This document shows, in pieces, positions 5,912-50,984 of a stretch of DNA of 64,000 bases; position 1 is the first letter of the stretch; the number at the start of each line of letters is the position of its first letter. The notes beneath the pieces were generated by a model. It had not been told where the DNA came from, searched no databases, and saw nothing but the letters and a program-made list of their open reading frames with translations. The translations under genes were made by a program, and so were the position numbers. The DNA lies in NCBI GenBank assembly GCA_002692855.1, contig NZMJ01000119.1, forward strand, positions 1-64,000. The letters are read 5' to 3'. The stretch comes from Maricaulis sp. (GTDB lineage Bacteria; Pseudomonadota; Alphaproteobacteria; Caulobacterales; Maricaulaceae).

Positions 5912-6036
5912 GCGCCGGGCGCTCCTTCGATTTCGCGGCGAATGAAGCCTCTTGCGTGCGCCGGTGCAATGGGTCGTGACGCCGCAATGCAGCCGCGTCT
6001 GGCCGGGTGGCACGGCTCTGGCTAGTGTCCGCCTCC

Positions 6037-7515
6037 ATGACAGACGCCCGTACATTGCTCCAAGACGCCGAACGTGCCTGTGCGCGCGGCGACCGCATCG
6101 CCGGAATCGATCTCGTGCGCCGGATCGTGGCGAGCGACGAGAAGCTGGGCTCCGATTGGGCCATCCCGGCGATGATGGCCGCAGAGCTGCTGGACTATGA
6201 CACGGCCGCCCGGGCGGCCGCGAAACTGTGTGCCGAGGATGGCAGCGACCCGCGCCAGTGGCGCTTCTATGCCGGCCTGCTTCAGAATGTCGGCGAGGCG
6301 GGCAAGGCGATGGAGGTGCTGGGAAAGATCGGCGCTGACGCACCCGGCGACGCGGCGCTCGCCTATGAAACCGGGTTCGCGGCCAAGCTGGCCGGGGATT
6401 TTGACACGGCAAGGGAGCGTTTCGAGCAGGTCATCGCTCTGGATCCAAAACACCTTCTTGCACGCGCCGAACTGGGCACAATCCGGCGCGCGGTGAGCGG
6501 CGACGAGAACGTCCTCGAACTCGAGACCGAGCGCGTGCGCTGTCTTGAATCGGGCCGGCGTGACCGTCATGCCGCACGGATTTCATATGCCCTGGCCAAG
6601 GCATATGACGACGTGAAGTCTCACACGCTGAGCGCAAGACGGGTCGCGGAAGGTGCCGCGATGATGCATGAGGCCGAGCCTTATGATCCCGCTGCGAACC
6701 ATCGTTTCACCCGCGCGCTGATGACGCTCTACACCCCCGATTTCGTCGAGGCGCAGTCCGGCAAGGGGCACCGCGATGCGCGTCCGGTCTTCGTTCTCGG
6801 ACCGCCTCGCTCCGGCACGACGCTGGTGGAAGCCATCCTCGCCGCGCATCCCGGGGTGAAGGCAGGCGGCGAGCACAAGCTGATGTGGCTCGCTTCACTG
6901 GATTTGGGCGTGCAGGCGGACGGAACGCTGCACCGCTGGCTTGAAACCGCAGGCGAGGGCGCCTGGGAAAAGCTGGGCCAGCGCTATTGCGCCGACGTCG
7001 AGGCGCGCCTGGGCGACGCGGCGCGCTGGACCGACAAAAATCTCTACAATGTCACCCGCTTCGGTGCCGCGGCCCTCGCCTTGCCTGACGCACGCTTCAT
7101 CTGGTGCCGACGTGATGCGATGGATGTCGCCTGGTCAGCGTGGAAGACCCTGTTCGCGGAAGGCAATCGCTGGAGCTACGACCCCGTCGCGATTGCCGCC
7201 TTCCTGGCCGACTACGACATGCTGATGCAGCATTGGGTGACGCTGTTCCCGGACCGGGTCATGGAAGTGCGCTACGAAGATCTCGTCACTTCGCCCGATG
7301 ACCAGATCGCGCGTCTCCTGGACTTCTGCGGTCTCGAGGATGATCCCGCGACGCGGCGATTCCACGAGGCCAACCGCACCGTTGCCACGGCCAGCTTCGC
7401 GCAGGTGCGCCAGCCCATCAGTACCGCGTCGGTCGGGGCATGGCGGCGCTACATGCCCGAGGCCAAGCCGCTGGTTGACGCCCTTCATGCCGAGGGCGTG
7501 GTCTTCAACGACTAG
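6037..7515 (+). CDS. TPR-containing sulfotransferase family protein
   Basis: 492 aa from the ATG at 6037 (a GTG at 6007 would add 10 residues; neither has a strong ribosome site). The first half is tetratricopeptide-like helical repeat (for example [20 protein letters not shown]). From about residue 252 comes the sulfotransferase domain with the PAPS 5'-phosphosulfate loop [17 protein letters not shown], and later the 3'-phosphate segment [15 protein letters not shown]. Such proteins transfer sulfate from PAPS to an unknown acceptor, or are non-sulfating relatives. The stop codon is shared with trmL on the other strand. Confidence 0.85.
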
Positions 7516-43337: not shown

Positions 43338-43649
43338 TCATTCCTCCACCACTTCCTCCCCCGGCGCCCACGGGCGGCACAGCGCCGAGCGCGGCACGAC
43401 CGGATAGGTGCCGCCATCGCGCATCGGCAGGCCGGAGGCGGCATGATGCCGGGCTTCAATGTACTCGCCCGGCTCGGGCGGCGGCGGCATGCGTGACGGG
43501 TCGGCGATGAAGACCGGGCGCTGCCTTTGCGCCACCTCCAGCCCCATCCGGTAGGTCAGGATCAGCCGCGCAATATCGAGCGGCATGGAATCGGGCGGGC
43601 GATAGCCGTCCGGCTTCGGCAGGGCGTTCAGCGCCTTTGCGGCGTCCTG
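43338..43649 (-). pseudogene. 5'-truncated gene fragment at the island edge
   Basis: The minus-strand frame is open from 43649 to the stop at 43338 and reads as ordinary protein from its first codon (QDAAKALNALPKPDGYRPPD, then SMPLDIARLILTYRMG, ending GEEVVEE), with no start codon near its upstream end; the ATG at 43586 has no ribosome site and would drop coding-like sequence. It looks like the C-terminal third of a longer protein cut off at 43650. The protein family is not recognised. Confidence 0.5.
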
Positions 43650-43803
43650 CTACGCGGCTTGACCGTCCTCAAAGGTGGCGGTTATCGCGCCGCCTATCCC
43701 GACCAGCGCAACAAGTGAGTTCTCCAGCGCGGAGCGCTCGCTTTTCTCCGCGAAGGCGGGGAAGGTTAGCTTAGCTATCCGCAGTGTGGGGGATGCAACG
43801 GAG

Positions 43804-44748
43804 GTGACTAGTGTTAACAGTACAAATCGCGGTTACAATACCGCCTCGTTGCAACTCGAATCGAAATTCTTGCGCGCGGACTTCAACTTGACCGAGATTG
43901 AAAGCAATCATTTGACAAGACACGGACCTAGCCCGATCCGTTGGGCCGGGAGCAAGCGCTATGTCGTAGCCGGCCTCTCCGACGCAATTCGTGAGAGTAA
44001 TTTGCATTATGTCGAGCCGTTTGCGGGTTCAGCCGCGCTGTTTTTCGGAGCACGACCAAACTCAGCCACCCTAGGCGACCTAAATGGTAAATTAATAAAT
44101 TTTTACAAGAGATTAAGAGAGGGCGCCAAAGAGCTACATGCTGGAATGTCCGGTTTAAGCAGAGACGTAGAAACATATAATCGAATCAGGAAAAAATTTA
44201 ATGAAGGGTCTGGAAACTCCCTCGAAGCGGCCATCCAGTTTGCGTATTTGAATCGCAACTGCTTCAATGGAATCTGGAGAACAAATCAAAGAGGAGAATT
44301 CAACGTTCCATTTAGTAAAAACAGTAGATCGGAATATCCGAGTGAAGAGCACTATCAAAAATCTGCTGAAAATCTAAAACGCGCAAAACTATATTGCTCT
44401 GATTTTCGTAAATTGATTGAACAAAATGCAAAAAAAGATTGCATTTTATTTGTCGACCCGCCATACTTTTCTGGTTCTGAGAGAATTTTTATTGAATACG
44501 GATCGGAGTGCTTCAAAAAGAATGACTTAGATGATCTAGTGTATTTGCTTCACAAAGCAAACCGCAATGGCGCAAGAATAATTTTTACATATCATAACGA
44601 CAAATCTGTCGCAGATAAGTTTCCGGGCTGGCTCAAGGGGAAGATATCTGTCACTCGGAACGTTGGGGGCTTCTCAGGGTCACGAAAGGGAGCGTCAGAG
44701 CTTCTGATTACAAATTGGCAACCAGCATTAAGGTGTCTCCCATGCTAG
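43804..44748 (+). CDS. D12-class adenine-specific DNA methyltransferase
   Basis: 314 aa from a GTG at 43804; the start is uncertain, with TTG at 43849 or 43888 also in frame. The D12/Dam-type motifs are present: AdoMet-site PIRWAGSKRY, EPFAGSAALFFGA, DLNGKLINFYKRLRE and the catalytic DPPY at about residues 218-221 (FVDPPYFSG), then GARIIFTYHND. It N6-methylates adenine at an unknown site. First gene of the AT-rich island, 16 bases before the phosphoesterase. No linked classical restriction enzyme is seen; the neighbours may supply that role. Confidence 0.88.
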   Translation: MTSVNSTNRGYNTASLQLESKFLRADFNLTEIESNHLTRHGPSPIRWAGSKRYVVAGLSDAIRESNLHYVEPFAGSAALFFGARPNSATLGDLNGKLINFYKRLREGAKELHAGMSGLSRDVETYNRIRKKFNEGSGNSLEAAIQFAYLNRNCFNGIWRTNQRGEFNVPFSKNSRSEYPSEEHYQKSAENLKRAKLYCSDFRKLIEQNAKKDCILFVDPPYFSGSERIFIEYGSECFKKNDLDDLVYLLHKANRNGARIIFTYHNDKSVADKFPGWLKGKISVTRNVGGFSGSRKGASELLITNWQPALRCLPC

Positions 44749-44764
44749 TGTTAGGGCGCCTCCC

Positions 44765-45952
44765 ATGAAAGATTTTCTTATTATTAGCGATATCCATTGT
44801 TCCGCAGATCCCCTAGGTGCGCACAACGGAACGTCATATGTAAGCAGCAAAATTTCAGATGGAGATATAAATCATCCTTTCGCTGGCATCCGGAAGGCAT
44901 TAACGGGGCATTCCGTCGATGCAGTTCTGTGTCCGGGGGACATAACCGATAAGGCGGAGCCCGACACCCTCATCTATGCATGGGGTGCCCTTGCGCAACT
45001 TAGTCGTGACCTGAATGCCGAGTTGATTGCTTGCTCAGGAAATCACGATCTCGACTCCCGTCATAAGCACAACGCAGATCCGGCTGGTCTTATTATGGCG
45101 CTTCGCCCACGCTTGCCATTACACGATAGAACGGCTTATTTAGAATATTGGGCCGAAAAATTCACTCTTTCGAGACGAAGCGATACAAGTTTACTAATTG
45201 TAAATACGGCCGCATTTCACGGTGGTGGTCCTAATCAGGCCGCTGAGCTCGAACACGGCCGCATTAGCGACCATACACTCGACAAAATACGGTCGGCACT
45301 TGCGGAGACTAACTTAGGCAGTTTTGGCGTTCTTCTGTGCCACCACCATCTAGTTCGCAACAACGAGGTTCGTGAAGTCGACTATTCGGAGGCAATCGGC
45401 GGCCAAGCGCTTCTGGAGATAATCGAGAGTACCGGTAAGCCATGGCTCGTGGTTCATGGTCATAAGCACCGCCCTCGCGTGATGTACGCTCAGGGGGGGA
45501 GTGGCTCACCCATCATCCTAAGCGCGGCCTCATTTAGCGCCAATGTACGTCGCGATGCACTAAATCACGCGCCTAATCAAATGCACTTAGTGAGTGTCGA
45601 TCCTGGCGCTGCTTCGGCAATGAATTTGGACCTCGTAGGCAAAGTTCGTAGTTGGAATTGGCTGCCGAACATCGGCTGGAAGCCTGCGATAAACCCTGCT
45701 GGGCTCCCACATGAGAGTGGTTTTGGTGCACGATCCGCGAAATCGCAGATCATTAGTGACCTAAAAAAATTAGCGGTAAGTCACAATGGAAACGTGATTA
45801 AACGCGCCGAGATACTCACTAGGGTGCCACTATTGGATTATCTCCTACCGCAAGATCTAGAAAGAGTGATCGAAGACTTAGAGTCGGACGCGGAAATTGC
45901 GTTAGCGCGAAACGAGGTAGGCCTATTAGCTGAGATTGGGGCAGTCACATGA
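44765..45952 (+). CDS. Calcineurin-like metallophosphoesterase
   Basis: 395 aa. All five metallophosphoesterase motifs are visible: D9/H11 (SDIHC), GDITD (58-62), GNHD (92-95), CHHH (192-195) and GHKH (232-235), so a two-metal active site is intact. The C-terminal 100 residues (SQIISDLKKLAVSHNG, RVIEDLESDAEIAL) look like a small helical or winged-helix domain, not part of the catalytic fold. It might be a nuclease or phosphodiesterase. Overlaps the ATPase start by 4 bases (ATGA), so it is coupled to it. Confidence 0.85.
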   Translation: MKDFLIISDIHCSADPLGAHNGTSYVSSKISDGDINHPFAGIRKALTGHSVDAVLCPGDITDKAEPDTLIYAWGALAQLSRDLNAELIACSGNHDLDSRHKHNADPAGLIMALRPRLPLHDRTAYLEYWAEKFTLSRRSDTSLLIVNTAAFHGGGPNQAAELEHGRISDHTLDKIRSALAETNLGSFGVLLCHHHLVRNNEVREVDYSEAIGGQALLEIIESTGKPWLVVHGHKHRPRVMYAQGGSGSPIILSAASFSANVRRDALNHAPNQMHLVSVDPGAASAMNLDLVGKVRSWNWLPNIGWKPAINPAGLPHESGFGARSAKSQIISDLKKLAVSHNGNVIKRAEILTRVPLLDYLLPQDLERVIEDLESDAEIALARNEVGLLAEIGAVT

Positions 45953-47712
45953 TTGGCGGATCTGAATTTAATGCACGATCGCTACCTGCCTCGGAAGTAG
46001 CAAGCTGGTTCGTACCTCCAGAAACCCACTTTGTACCTCTGCTTTCTCGTGATCACACCGTTATGGTAGGCCCAAGGGGTAGCGGCAAAACAACATTACT
46101 GAAAATGCTGACTATTAACGCATTGGAAAACTGGGATGCACCTGAGGCTGTAGAATACATAAATAAAATACACTTTAACGCGGCTCTGGTGCCGGGAGAT
46201 AGACTATGGGGACAGCAAGTATCAGAGGCAAATGAGAAGGCATCGGGCTTAGGAGAAAAAATATTCGTAGCGCATACGGTTCGCGCTCTCCTTCGGGCCA
46301 TGAAGGACGTAACGGTGGCGTCGGAGTTATCCACAATAACGAGCACATCACACCTGCACGCAAATATGGGTGTCGAGAACGAAGGGGTGTTGGCGGACAC
46401 TTTAGCCGAAACTTATGGTCTTTCCATAAGGCTTCGTTCATTGCTGGGCTTAATATTTATATTTGATCACATTCTGGCGAATACAGAACGCCTTGAAAGT
46501 TCTAGAGTTTTTGAAACTCAAAACCTCTCGGGTCTTTTAAGTGCTACGATTTCCGCTTTTAACGAATTGGCAGGGACACCGGATCGGCAGTGGGCACTTT
46601 TGTTCGATGAGCTCGAGATCGCCCCGGAGGGGATTCAATCGCTTCTTATGTCGCTCATTCGTAGTTCAGACCAGCGAATAATCTTTAAACTAGCTCTTGC
46701 TCCTTATACACCGTATGTCAAACAATCGCGGCCAGATGCGCCGCACATAAAACACGACTACAATGTCGTTTCTCTTACTTACCCTAATAAGGAAGACTCT
46801 CGGATATTCTCTCAGCAGATTGCGGAGAAGGTTTTTTCATCGTCTGCGAATGCCGACGTGAGATTGCTTAATGTCTTTGGCAGCAGCGCATTCCGAGTCA
46901 ATTACAACAAAGGAGAAAAGCTTCCACGGGAATTTCTGTCCCTCGCTCATAAAGATGAGTCGTTTGCTGAACACATAAAAATAACGGGACTTACAAAAAG
47001 GAACCTGAAGAACGAGAATGAGCGAGCGCAGCACATTAGGAAAATATCTCCGATTGTCAAAACGCGGGATTATTATCTTTCGAGCTTCCATAATGAGACC
47101 GCAAAACGCCATAGATCGCGAAAATCTCACGATTTGTACACGGGATACCCCACCATTCTTGAGGTTGCGGATGGTAACCCACGTGCCTTGTTGACAATGC
47201 TCGTCCCCATGGCGCGAGCAGTGCGGTACGTAACAGAAATTGGTCGACCCGGTTTGGTCCCTCGGAACCTTCAGGCCGACGCCGTTAAGAGGGCGGAATT
47301 TCTTCAAGCCTCTCTTCTAAACGTTATACCCGTTGAAATCGAGGGGAATGAGAAAAAGGGGCTACTCGGGTTCATCGACGATATAGGCCGATCGCTTCAA
47401 GCGCGTCTGATCTCTGGGCCGTTTAAGCCGGACTTATACTGCAGCTTCAATGTCGACCGAGATGTTACTGACAAAGAAGAGGCGGCAATTGGTCAGGCCC
47501 TGAATGTGGGGGCCATAATCTACGTGCCGCATCGCGACGCGAGCCCCGACGGGATTCTGAAGGGAATTAGGGGCATGCGGTTTAGGCTTTCCTATTCGTT
47601 GTCGGCGCGCTTCCGGTTACCCCTCACGCTCGGAGAGCCTCTAAACCTTTCAGCGTTATTGAAAAGAGCGAGGGAGTATGATGATGAGCAGCTTACCTTT
47701 TTCGAGAAGTAG
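45949..47712 (+). CDS. ORC/CDC6-like AAA ATPase
   Basis: 587 aa. N-terminal FNARSLPASEVASWFVPPE leads into Walker A GPRGSGKTTL (41-50); Walker B is WALLFDELEIAP near residue 220; ADGNPRALL (about 407-415) is a sensor-2-type segment. This matches the ORC-CDC6-like AAA family found in bacterial accessory regions. The C-terminal 150 residues are unrecognised. It could be a DNA-sensing or nuclease-loading motor. Overlaps the next gene by 35 bases. Confidence 0.7.
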   Translation: MIGGSEFNARSLPASEVASWFVPPETHFVPLLSRDHTVMVGPRGSGKTTLLKMLTINALENWDAPEAVEYINKIHFNAALVPGDRLWGQQVSEANEKASGLGEKIFVAHTVRALLRAMKDVTVASELSTITSTSHLHANMGVENEGVLADTLAETYGLSIRLRSLLGLIFIFDHILANTERLESSRVFETQNLSGLLSATISAFNELAGTPDRQWALLFDELEIAPEGIQSLLMSLIRSSDQRIIFKLALAPYTPYVKQSRPDAPHIKHDYNVVSLTYPNKEDSRIFSQQIAEKVFSSSANADVRLLNVFGSSAFRVNYNKGEKLPREFLSLAHKDESFAEHIKITGLTKRNLKNENERAQHIRKISPIVKTRDYYLSSFHNETAKRHRSRKSHDLYTGYPTILEVADGNPRALLTMLVPMARAVRYVTEIGRPGLVPRNLQADAVKRAEFLQASLLNVIPVEIEGNEKKGLLGFIDDIGRSLQARLISGPFKPDLYCSFNVDRDVTDKEEAAIGQALNVGAIIYVPHRDASPDGILKGIRGMRFRLSYSLSARFRLPLTLGEPLNLSALLKRAREYDDEQLTFFEK

Positions 47713-48646
47713 CCTCACCCTATGCGAAGAGCGTTCCGTACTCGGAGTGGAGGGTCTCAAAGAATTTGATGTGGTTGTCTGCGCCTTAGGTTACGAGACT
47801 CGATCGCGGTACGTAGCCGAAAATATAGAGTTTGTCGCTTCGACAAAAATTGCACTTACGTTTGATCACAATTTAAGCATTTCACGGAATGAAAATGAGC
47901 GCTGTTTTGATAGTTTTGGATTTAATAAGTACACCTTACAAGACAATCAATGGAAAATGGTTTTTGAAAAAATGGCGGTTAAAACAAATGAAGAAATTAG
48001 AATTGCTGTAGACATTTCATCTATGTCAAAAGAAATGATGGCGTGTGTTTTGAGTCGTATTGGAATGGTCGCCGACAAGCGGCCCGTTAAATTATTTTCG
48101 ATCTATGCGCCAACCTCGTATTACGAGCTTCGGGAACCATATCCGATTCAACGGCAGGGTCCTGTTTCGCCGCTTCTGGGCGGGGGGTATGCAAATCCCG
48201 AAAGTCCACTTGCAGCGATAGTCGGGCTAGGTAATGAAAGAGGACTTGCCGTAGGGGCGATTCAAGCGATCGAGCCATCCCTGCTCTGGACGTATGTCGC
48301 TATCGGATTCGATGAACGGTTCGGGCATGACGTCCGAAGCGCCAATGAAAATTTGTCAGAGATTTATGACTTAACAGAATTTACTTTCAAGATAGCGGAT
48401 CCGACGCTCTTGAGACAAGAGTTGCAGTCGAGTGTAATCACGCTTCGGCAGACGCACCGTGTTATGATTATTCCAATGGGTTCAAAAATATTTAGTCAAA
48501 TGTCAATACTGACAGCGTTTTTTGGGAAGTGTCCTGAATTGACGATATGGCAATTTTCAAGTGGATCAAATGCAACCGCATCGGATAGGGTTGCCGAAGG
48601 GAGTATTGTGACGCACGTTGCAACAATTAGGAGGTCGGATTTTTAG
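47678..48646 (+). CDS. Uncharacterised island protein with two Rossmann-like lobes
   Basis: 322 aa; ATG codons at 47678, 47681 and 47684 are all possible starts. No family recognised. Two halves each show a strand followed by a conserved-looking loop: AVDISSMSKEMMACVL (111-126) and VMIIPMGSKIFSQMSILTA (262-280), reminiscent of the D-x-S/T-G-x-S/T-K or GTK loops of nucleotide-sensing Rossmann folds such as CARF. Resemblance is by eye only. Last gene of the four-gene operon; 35-base overlap with the ATPase. Confidence 0.6.
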   Translation: MMMSSLPFSRSSLTLCEERSVLGVEGLKEFDVVVCALGYETRSRYVAENIEFVASTKIALTFDHNLSISRNENERCFDSFGFNKYTLQDNQWKMVFEKMAVKTNEEIRIAVDISSMSKEMMACVLSRIGMVADKRPVKLFSIYAPTSYYELREPYPIQRQGPVSPLLGGGYANPESPLAAIVGLGNERGLAVGAIQAIEPSLLWTYVAIGFDERFGHDVRSANENLSEIYDLTEFTFKIADPTLLRQELQSSVITLRQTHRVMIIPMGSKIFSQMSILTAFFGKCPELTIWQFSSGSNATASDRVAEGSIVTHVATIRRSDF

Positions 48647-48836
48647 AGAAAGTGAACGGCAGTGGATAAAATAAATTGCGCTGCATTTTATAGATCTGTT
48701 AATTCGAGTTATTTCACTACCTCTAATCTTTTAGTCTCGTCTCGTAACCAAGCCACCTCACTCCTTCGCTCTTGGCGGCGTTTCGCAGCGCAAACCTCAC
48801 CCCATTCGTTCTGCGGACTTCGGCGGGATGAAGCCC

Positions 48837-50984
<2,148 letters not shown>

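Follow-up and report, generated by a model that had tools for sequence, protein, structure and literature searches.

A recurrent operon encoding a Dam-type methylase, a phosphoesterase, an ORC/STAND-like ATPase and a CARF protein at a defence hotspot of Maricaulis: a candidate modification-gated defence system

BREX systems consist of the methylase PglX, the ORC/Cdc6 ATPase BrxC and the phosphatase-fold protein PglZ, and RADAR consists of the ATPase RdrA and the deaminase RdrB. CARF domains are familiar chiefly as the receptors of CRISPR messengers. Computational surveys by Makarova et al. (2020) and Nicastro et al. (2023), both in Nucleic Acids Research (NAR), reportedly cover CARF6 and the effector domains Calcineurin-CE, HD-CE and PRTase-CE. 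Here we describe a four-gene operon of Maricaulis sp. (assembly GCA_002692855.1) that encodes a Dam-type adenine methylase, a calcineurin-like phosphoesterase, an AAA+ ATPase and a tandem CARF protein. It lies within the first 64,000 nucleotides of contig NZMJ01000119.1, the stretch that was analysed and is referred to as the window. We are highly confident that the operon is a defence system. By analogy, it would work like BREX and RADAR in its logic and is itself a CARF6/ORC/calcineurin-type system, as gene 4 falls in the CARF6 models, the ATPase in PF24389 and the winged helix of the phosphoesterase in PF24408, and variant operons carry HD-CE or PRTase-CE. A relation to Dam methylation and a location in a defence hotspot are what is added here to those systems. 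Literature searches found no description of this operon and no experiment on it, and an earlier computational description may exist; its parts have published family models, and parts, perhaps the whole set, have been catalogued computationally before.

The four genes lie on the forward strand within an insert of 5.1 kb (43651-48799) that runs from the side of an L,D-transpeptidase gene to uvrB (48837-50984, reverse strand). The uvrB open reading frame (ORF), with 80-93% identical copies in sister genomes, anchors the site on the chromosome and stands outside the system. The guanine-plus-cytosine (GC) content of the insert was 47.8%, compared to 64.8% for the remainder of the window, and the lowest value among 194 other windows of equal length was 62.5%. 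This agrees with the sharp change in composition noted in the first-pass annotation, which a model had made from the sequence. The blastn match to sister genome G400 ended at 43650 and restarted at 48800, placing the insert edges near these positions; the island first described at 43804-48646 is thus real, but its edges are slightly wider. The gaps between the genes, in order, are 16, -4 and -35 bases, and the spacing and overlaps given before were reproduced from the ORF list. Promoter-like sites were at chance level (six found, 5.8 expected). The edge regions, searched separately, contained no repeat family beyond a 16-base copy pair inside the left flank and one palindrome.

Gene 1 (43912-44748) matched the NCBIfam model TIGR00571 at 179 bits (cut-off 115) and PF02086 at 119 bits. 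The WAGSK, EPF-GS and DPPY motifs were invariant across four aligned enzymes, with both the S-adenosylmethionine motif and DPPY present in gene 1, in agreement with its earlier assignment as a D12 adenine methyltransferase. Searched against solved structures, the gene 1 profile matched the DpnII methylase (2dpm) at 2e-54 and Dam of the E. coli type (4rtj) at 4e-41. The operon resembles type II restriction-modification systems with a DpnII-type methylase in this respect, but no restriction endonuclease family was among the matches of the four proteins, and the methylase is accompanied here by a multi-protein ATPase/CARF machinery. The longest ORF (43675-44748) begins at GTG 43675 and the conserved domain at ~43933, with further in-frame starts at GTG 43804, TTG 43885 and TTG 43912. 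We favour a late start because the proteins of three aligned relatives have just 5-20 residues ahead of WAGSK; the GTG 43804 start chosen previously is in frame, but the short N-termini of the relatives speak for a later one. Positions aligned with N120, R124, N126 and P134 of Dam, residues that presumably have a role in specificity, were kept in 54, 54, 52 and 53 of 54 operonic enzymes.

Gene 2 (44765-45952), the probable effector, matched the metallophosphoesterase family PF00149 (41 bits, cut-off 21.5) and carries a C-terminal winged helix matching PF24408 (41 bits, cut-off 27). It thus combines the two domains, calcineurin and PF24408 winged helix, by which nucleotide-targeting Calcineurin-CE proteins are recognised. 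Eight of the nine metal or catalytic positions checked (D9, H11, D59, N93, H94, H193, H233 and H235) were identical in all 65 relatives and the ninth, H231, in 62, as expected of the intact metallophosphoesterase that had been proposed. The best NCBIfam match was the anti-phage phosphoesterase DS9_1, at 58 bits far under its cut-off of 420. When compared with the PDB, the gene 2 profile matched Lmo2642 (2e-17) along 277 positions, and Rv0805 (5e-10) and SbcD (3e-4) along just ~60-80 positions of the motif region. The sbcd family score was 19 bits compared to a cut-off of 78, which places gene 2 outside the Mre11/SbcD family, and there is no Rad50/SbcC-type partner, the neighbouring ATPase being ORC/STAND-like. 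The analogy to an Mre11/SbcD nuclease with a DNA-translocating ATPase, on which the first-pass annotation had drawn, is accordingly not supported: the profile is closer to Lmo2642 and Rv0805 than to SbcD, the ATPase is nearest to the STAND/ORC type, and the phosphoesterase slot is swapped for HD-CE or PRTase-CE in variant operons described below.

Gene 3 (45949-47712), the probable sensor or transducer, matched the ORC-CDC6-like family PF24389 at 337 bits (cut-off 27), and both Walker motifs are intact, as stated previously for an ORC-like AAA ATPase. GxRGxGKT (Walker A) and DExE (Walker B) were found in 65/65 relatives, partly by construction, since these motifs were part of the patterns used for the scan. 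The structure model of gene 3 (predicted local distance difference test, pLDDT, 92) was closest in fold to the archaeal ATPases 2qen (Z 14.5) and 2fna (Z 14.1), which we take to be STAND-like, followed by Cdc6 (1fnn, Z 12.8), ORC and BrxC (9zll, Z 11.4). Foldseek gave RADAR RdrA as a weak top match (E 1.6e-3, with none below 0.001), and the PDB searched by sequence yielded no more than short P-loop matches, led by an ABC-F protein with ORC4 next. Because chains of the ORC, STAND and clamp-loader types and further AAA+ proteins are intermixed in the ranking by Z, the model suggests an assignment of gene 3 at clade level only (ORC/STAND). With BREX, the operon shares the logic of a self-marking adenine methylase, an ORC-clade ATPase and a phosphohydrolase, but it has a Dam-type methylase and a CARF protein. 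No PglZ, PglX or BrxC family was among the Pfam, NCBIfam or PADLOC matches of the four proteins; the neighbours were not scanned for them. RADAR likewise pairs its ATPase with a nucleotide-directed enzyme, but the enzyme here is a phosphoesterase rather than a deaminase, and the methylase and CARF protein have no RADAR counterpart.

Gene 4 (47678-48646), the probable ligand sensor, had been left as an unknown protein. It indeed matched no Pfam family over the cut-off, but the PADLOC CARF6 model PDLC01915 matched it at 1e-44, an identity that had been missed. A sequence search of the PDB returned one designed protein and nothing else, and the identity was settled by fold comparison. The AlphaFold2 model, built with 69 sequences, had a pLDDT of 93 and a predicted template modelling score of 0.92. 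It aligned with Can1 (6sce) over 224 residues (Z 12.4, root-mean-square deviation 3.6). The second half (~175-300) matched Can2 (Z 12.7) and Csm6 (Z 12.6), the Can2, Csm6 and Csa3 matches ranging over Z 11-12.7, while the SAVED domains of Cap5 scored Z 8-9. Foldseek alone was weaker, with Cap5 the best match (E 1.8e-4). D112, Y143, G185, G268 and K270 were conserved in 69/69 sequences, E187 in 68, N223 in 67, R42 in 66 and E40 in 65. DSSP analysis of the model placed most of these conserved residues at or just past the strand ends of both Rossmann halves, which form the ligand face in CARF proteins. Judged by this model, gene 4 is a stand-alone tandem CARF protein of the CARF6 clade. It shares its double-CARF arrangement with Can1, a nuclease with two CARF domains; compared to type III CRISPR effectors such as Can1 and Csm6, gene 4 (322 amino acids, spanned by the CARF match) is too short for a fused effector. 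The profile searches and structure predictions proposed with the first-pass annotation thus assigned families to the four proteins and revealed gene 4 as a CARF protein.

To find further copies, we scanned one genome per species (84,980 species) with an alignment of the ATPase and obtained 75 loci. The alignment query was required, as a single-sequence scan of the genome contigs found nothing. The loci belong to seven phyla, Pseudomonadota, Bacteroidota, Actinomycetota, Acidobacteriota, Verrucomicrobiota, Planctomycetota and Gemmatimonadota, plus SAR324, with one Rhodococcus record sorted as Cyanobacteriota by the taxonomy helper. Phosphoesterase, ATPase and CARF gene occurred together in 69 of the 75. 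Among the six incomplete loci, L094, L122, L130 and L131 are cut by contig ends; the other two are L078, a short contig lacking the phosphoesterase, and the remote L133. Of 73 loci that extend far enough, 71 had the phosphoesterase directly before the ATPase (exceptions L078 and L133); the CARF gene directly followed the ATPase in 71 of 72 (exception L133), and in 52 of 67 a Dam-type methylase immediately preceded the phosphoesterase. The set thus recurs elsewhere, and all four genes diverge in a correlated manner (Mantel r 0.84-0.91, 53 loci). It is also rare: 14 of 398 genomes of the phylum had a PF24389 match over the cut-off, and among 99 close relatives the sole such match was in the genome that contains the window. 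PF24389 alone is a loose marker, as 83 of the 398 matched at E 0.001 and just the 14 passed the cut-off. A DNA-level search of E. coli genomes found no match to one Aliivibrio ATPase gene, a weak negative from a single query. A prophage or metabolic module, named beforehand as an alternative, was set aside, as no phage record matched the ATPase or the phosphoesterase, genes 1 and 4 not having been searched there; a scan of viral contigs with the ATPase found no relative.

The ATPase and gene 4 were also found on five plasmid records, and three of four regions inspected had the identical four-gene order. The fourth, from Pseudoalteromonas, carries a 614-amino-acid protein in the gene 1 slot (L045:5892-7736) that matched no Pfam family over the cut-off; by eye, its C-terminal part shows the D...E-x-K pattern known from restriction nucleases. 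Some loci have other neighbours. On a Methylobacterium plasmid, a CHAT-domain protein and a second metallophosphoesterase adjoin the operon (L043:12460-15932). Pseudoalteromonas rubra has, upstream of the operon, a protein of the guanylate cyclase family that carries an AGS_C sensor domain and that we take to be Pycsar-like (L089:4287-5663). In Vibrio mytili, TniQ and a Csy2-like gene lie downstream (L104:4813-8123), a pairing as in Tn7-like CRISPR transposons.

The genomic site gave further evidence. The 3' side of uvrB was readable in six of eight genus genomes, and all six had a block there with GC below its surroundings. In G400 this block holds Gabija (GajA 743 bits, GajB 646 bits) and in G398 CBASS (cyclase 469, E2 141 and phospholipase 320 bits). 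A protein resembling type II/IIG methylases (153 bits) is present in G404, an NDT_II-A match (148 bits) in G402 and an unrecognised gene pair in G399; the sixth block is the operon of the window. The blocks of the sister genomes are L156:426-4003, L157:16276-19298, L158:12600-15741, L159:11787-14485 and L160:16712-19435. The junctions are tightly bracketed with G400 only; the flanking genes are 15-19 kb apart in G399, G402 and G404, and G398 has no transpeptidase match. The operon therefore lies in a defence hotspot, since the same site holds Gabija or CBASS in sister species. This location is strong evidence for a defence role. The pair in L157:16276-19298 (265 and 740 amino acids) is unrecognised, shows weak helicase similarity and is possibly a new system. 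Upstream of the insert, an 82-amino-acid ORF (43338-43586) resembles the C-terminal part of a 274-amino-acid ORF at the same place in the sister locus (L156:4402-5226), whose N-terminus appears by eye to be helix-turn-helix-like; the insert seems to have cut the ORF now left at 82 amino acids. The Maricaulis genome itself (G000) measures 4.07 Mb with 5.9% contamination, compared to 2.2-2.8 Mb for seven genus mates. The assembly may be mixed, though the uvrB context still fits the genus.

Distant variants keep the ATPase and CARF6 pair and exchange the gene beside it. HD-CE (PF24391) occupies the phosphoesterase slot in L047 and L050, and PRTase-CE (PF24390) in L046, L051 and L052; all five operons retain the ATPase and its CARF6 neighbour, the latter at E < 1e-78. 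The gene 1 slot also varies: L047 has a C5-cytosine methylase there, and L063 and L065 each have a D12 methylase of another type. The HD-CE operons are L047:6672-11727, with the C5-cytosine methylase, and L050:530-7966, with DUF6339 and two unknown proteins. The PRTase-CE operons are L046:8331-12015, L051:7838-13975, with a HAD-like protein upstream, and L052:7562-14993, with a PfkB-like kinase upstream; these additions hint at nucleotide or sugar chemistry. A remote trio of phosphoesterase, ATPase and CARF6 protein (L048:7912-12370) had no methylase found upstream. The three unrelated folds of the slot, HD-CE, PRTase-CE and calcineurin, are predicted in the literature to act on free nucleotides. 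As HD-CE and PRTase-CE occupy the same slot in distant variants, gene 2 may be a nucleotide-directed effector that acts on free nucleotides, with the qualification that HD domains can also be nucleases.

To examine where a CARF ligand could come from, we searched for RAMP and SMODS families in 51 of the 76 carriers (the 75 scan loci and the window's own genome). RAMPs were used as the type III CRISPR marker because the Cas10 palm model was unspecific: PF22335 was over its cut-off in 11 of 50 carriers (27-35 bits) and also matched an E. coli control, and these matches were taken as GGDEF-type cross-hits. Type III CRISPR RAMPs (PF03787) were found in none of the 51 carriers, the own genome included, while four control genomes matched. 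A SMODS cyclase was present in 8 of the 51 and absent from the own genome. The four proteins themselves included no synthase of known messengers by Pfam, NCBIfam or PADLOC. So, in most carriers at least, either the CARF ligand has a source other than type III CRISPR or CBASS, or gene 4 is not a messenger receptor.

We then compared operonic and resident Dam, running TIGR00571 on the own genome and, for 74 of the 75 scan loci, on the host genome (L133 left out) and telling operonic from other matches by coordinates. Eight loci had a readable methylase-free slot (L070, L071, L080, L085, L089, L093, L099 and L110), and all eight hosts had a separate Dam (277-314 bits). Three methylase-free loci found later in the order of G510 (G709, G784 and G798) had hosts with Dam at 293-319 bits, giving 11 of 11 at 277-319 bits. 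In that order the system occurred in 6 of 394 genomes and an operonic Dam in none of the six. The resident Dam of V. owensii reads by eye as an ordinary E. coli-type Dam. Conversely, 47 of 53 genomes with an operonic Dam, the own included, had no other Dam over the cut-off. Fisher's exact test on the 59 rows in the first tree gave p 2e-7. Loci whose gene 1 slot was contig-cut or broken (L067, L078, L084, L087, L094, L104 and L122) were left out of this two-way count; Dam lay elsewhere in the genome for L087, L104, L067 and L122, and L078 had a methylase fragment only. Also left out were L063-L065 (another D12 type, no TIGR00571 match), L088, L102, L127 and L129 (Dam elsewhere in the locus), L133, the methylase-free plasmid locus L045 and the remote trios L048 and L049. 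L130 and L131 stand outside the trees, their ATPase being truncated by the contig. Among the neighbours scanned, which were only some, no other methylase was seen near the methylase-free loci. The operonic methylase of L131 (~5929-6777) is broken by a stop codon, with a second Dam elsewhere in the genome. Judging from these sequences, the nearer calcineurin clade appears to live in cells whose GATC sites carry methylation, whether from the operon's enzyme or from that of the host, and a self mark would be the simplest reason that fits this pattern. The earlier suggestion of a link to adenine methylation is thereby supported.

Several points weigh against such a self mark and the steps that would follow from it. 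The pattern was noticed after the fact, in the very scan that gave it. Relatedness leaves four independent pairs on supported branches and five on all, with a median sign-test p of 0.125; 196 of 200 pairings were concordant, one pair being uninformative in 4. The methylase-less hosts belong mostly to one order in which Dam is, we assume, general, and for this reason the three later genomes are a weak prospective test. Six operonic-Dam genomes carry a second Dam: L118 (284 bits, plus two more), L105 (189), L112 (186), L131 (174), L130 (122 and 118) and L082 (115, borderline). For L084 and L094, which are cut by contig ends, no Dam was seen. With L048 (G274), where no methylase was found upstream and the genome Dam match is 50 bits, under the cut-off, the tally becomes 11 of 12. 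TIGR00571 gave no Dam match in the PRTase-CE carriers G043, G384 and G187 or the HD-CE carrier G366, and in the HD-CE carrier with the C5 methylase (G049) the only match was below the cut-off. Not every variant needs Dam, and the Dam link, if real, is confined to the nearer calcineurin clade. The GATC specificity of the operonic methylase is itself predicted from alignment, and a nucleotide substrate for gene 2 is a proposal, as phosphoesterase folds include nucleases.

The reading we prefer is a modification-gated anti-phage operon. The Dam-type enzyme would methylate host GATC sites and so mark self, and the ORC/STAND ATPase and tandem CARF protein would form the constant sensor-transducer pair. 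On infection by unmethylated DNA, or when a nucleotide ligand then appears, the ATPase would assemble and switch on the phosphoesterase. The latter would destroy a nucleotide or phosphodiester pool needed by the phage, a role suggested by the relatives of gene 2 and by the HD-CE and PRTase-CE replacements in its slot, and replication or the cell would stop. We give this whole chain of steps slightly less than an even chance; the Dam-free L048 locus moved us down to this from an even one. The more specific version is held tentatively and is, in our estimate, clearly more likely wrong than right: GATC methylation by the operon's own or a housekeeping Dam is the self mark, the double-CARF protein senses a non-CRISPR, non-CBASS nucleotide signal, and the ATPase unleashes a swappable nucleotide-destroying effector. 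The modification-coupled defence first proposed is therefore supported by recurrence, hotspot and Dam link, but its DNA cutting of the Mre11/SbcD type is not. Clover (PMC12265719) comprises the HD deoxynucleotide triphosphohydrolase CloA and the nucleotidyltransferase CloB. It likewise defends through an enzyme on free nucleotides under nucleotide control, but with another effector fold, and no nucleotidyltransferase is among our four proteins.

The same observations can be read in three other ways. The phosphoesterase could be loaded by the ATPase and cut unmethylated phage DNA directly, like a restriction nuclease, and the methylation link, a winged helix (PF24408) that could bind DNA, the resemblance of the ATPase to the DNA-binding ORC/Cdc6 and BrxC, and the existence of HD DNases such as Cas3 would all suit this. 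We consider it unlikely, given that the profile lies closer to Lmo2642 and Rv0805 than to SbcD/Mre11, that the slot is exchangeable with HD-CE and with PRTase-CE, the latter no nuclease fold, and that a CARF sensor would be superfluous. That the methylase is only loosely linked, as a regulatory or addiction-type self-guard, with the Dam pattern following host phylogeny, seems to us improbable as well. The methylase-less loci do cluster in Vibrio/Pseudoalteromonas-like hosts, just four to five contrasts are independent, and the PRTase-CE variants and the remote L048 trio do without Dam, but the pattern extends to Acidobacteriota (L070) and a gammaproteobacterial metagenome-assembled genome (L071). 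Moreover, an operonic Dam is carried by gammaproteobacteria in which no second one exceeds the cut-off (L068, L079, L090, L096, L098, L101 and L128), and the methylase co-diverges tightly with the other genes. The phosphoesterase might instead make or destroy the CARF ligand, a cyclic or linear nucleotide, with the ATPase as the actual effector or scaffold. Its nearest solved relatives by profile, Lmo2642, Rv0805 and other proteins known as phosphodiesterases, agree with this, as do the lack of a known-messenger synthase among the four proteins and the RAMP and SMODS counts. However, HD-CE and PRTase-CE, which can take this slot, would then need to act on that signal too, and Pfam recognised no toxic domain in the ATPase, which makes this the least probable of the three.

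For the modification-gated operon, the presence of a CARF protein in genomes without a type III CRISPR source makes the question of its ligand testable. If Dam is indeed the self mark, a housekeeping methylase would double as an immune password, and phages with their own Dam, or hosts losing Dam, would matter in a new way. Removal of the operon's methylase should then be tolerated in dam-positive cells alone. The more specific version above, if true, would link immunity based on DNA modification with immunity based on nucleotide messengers.

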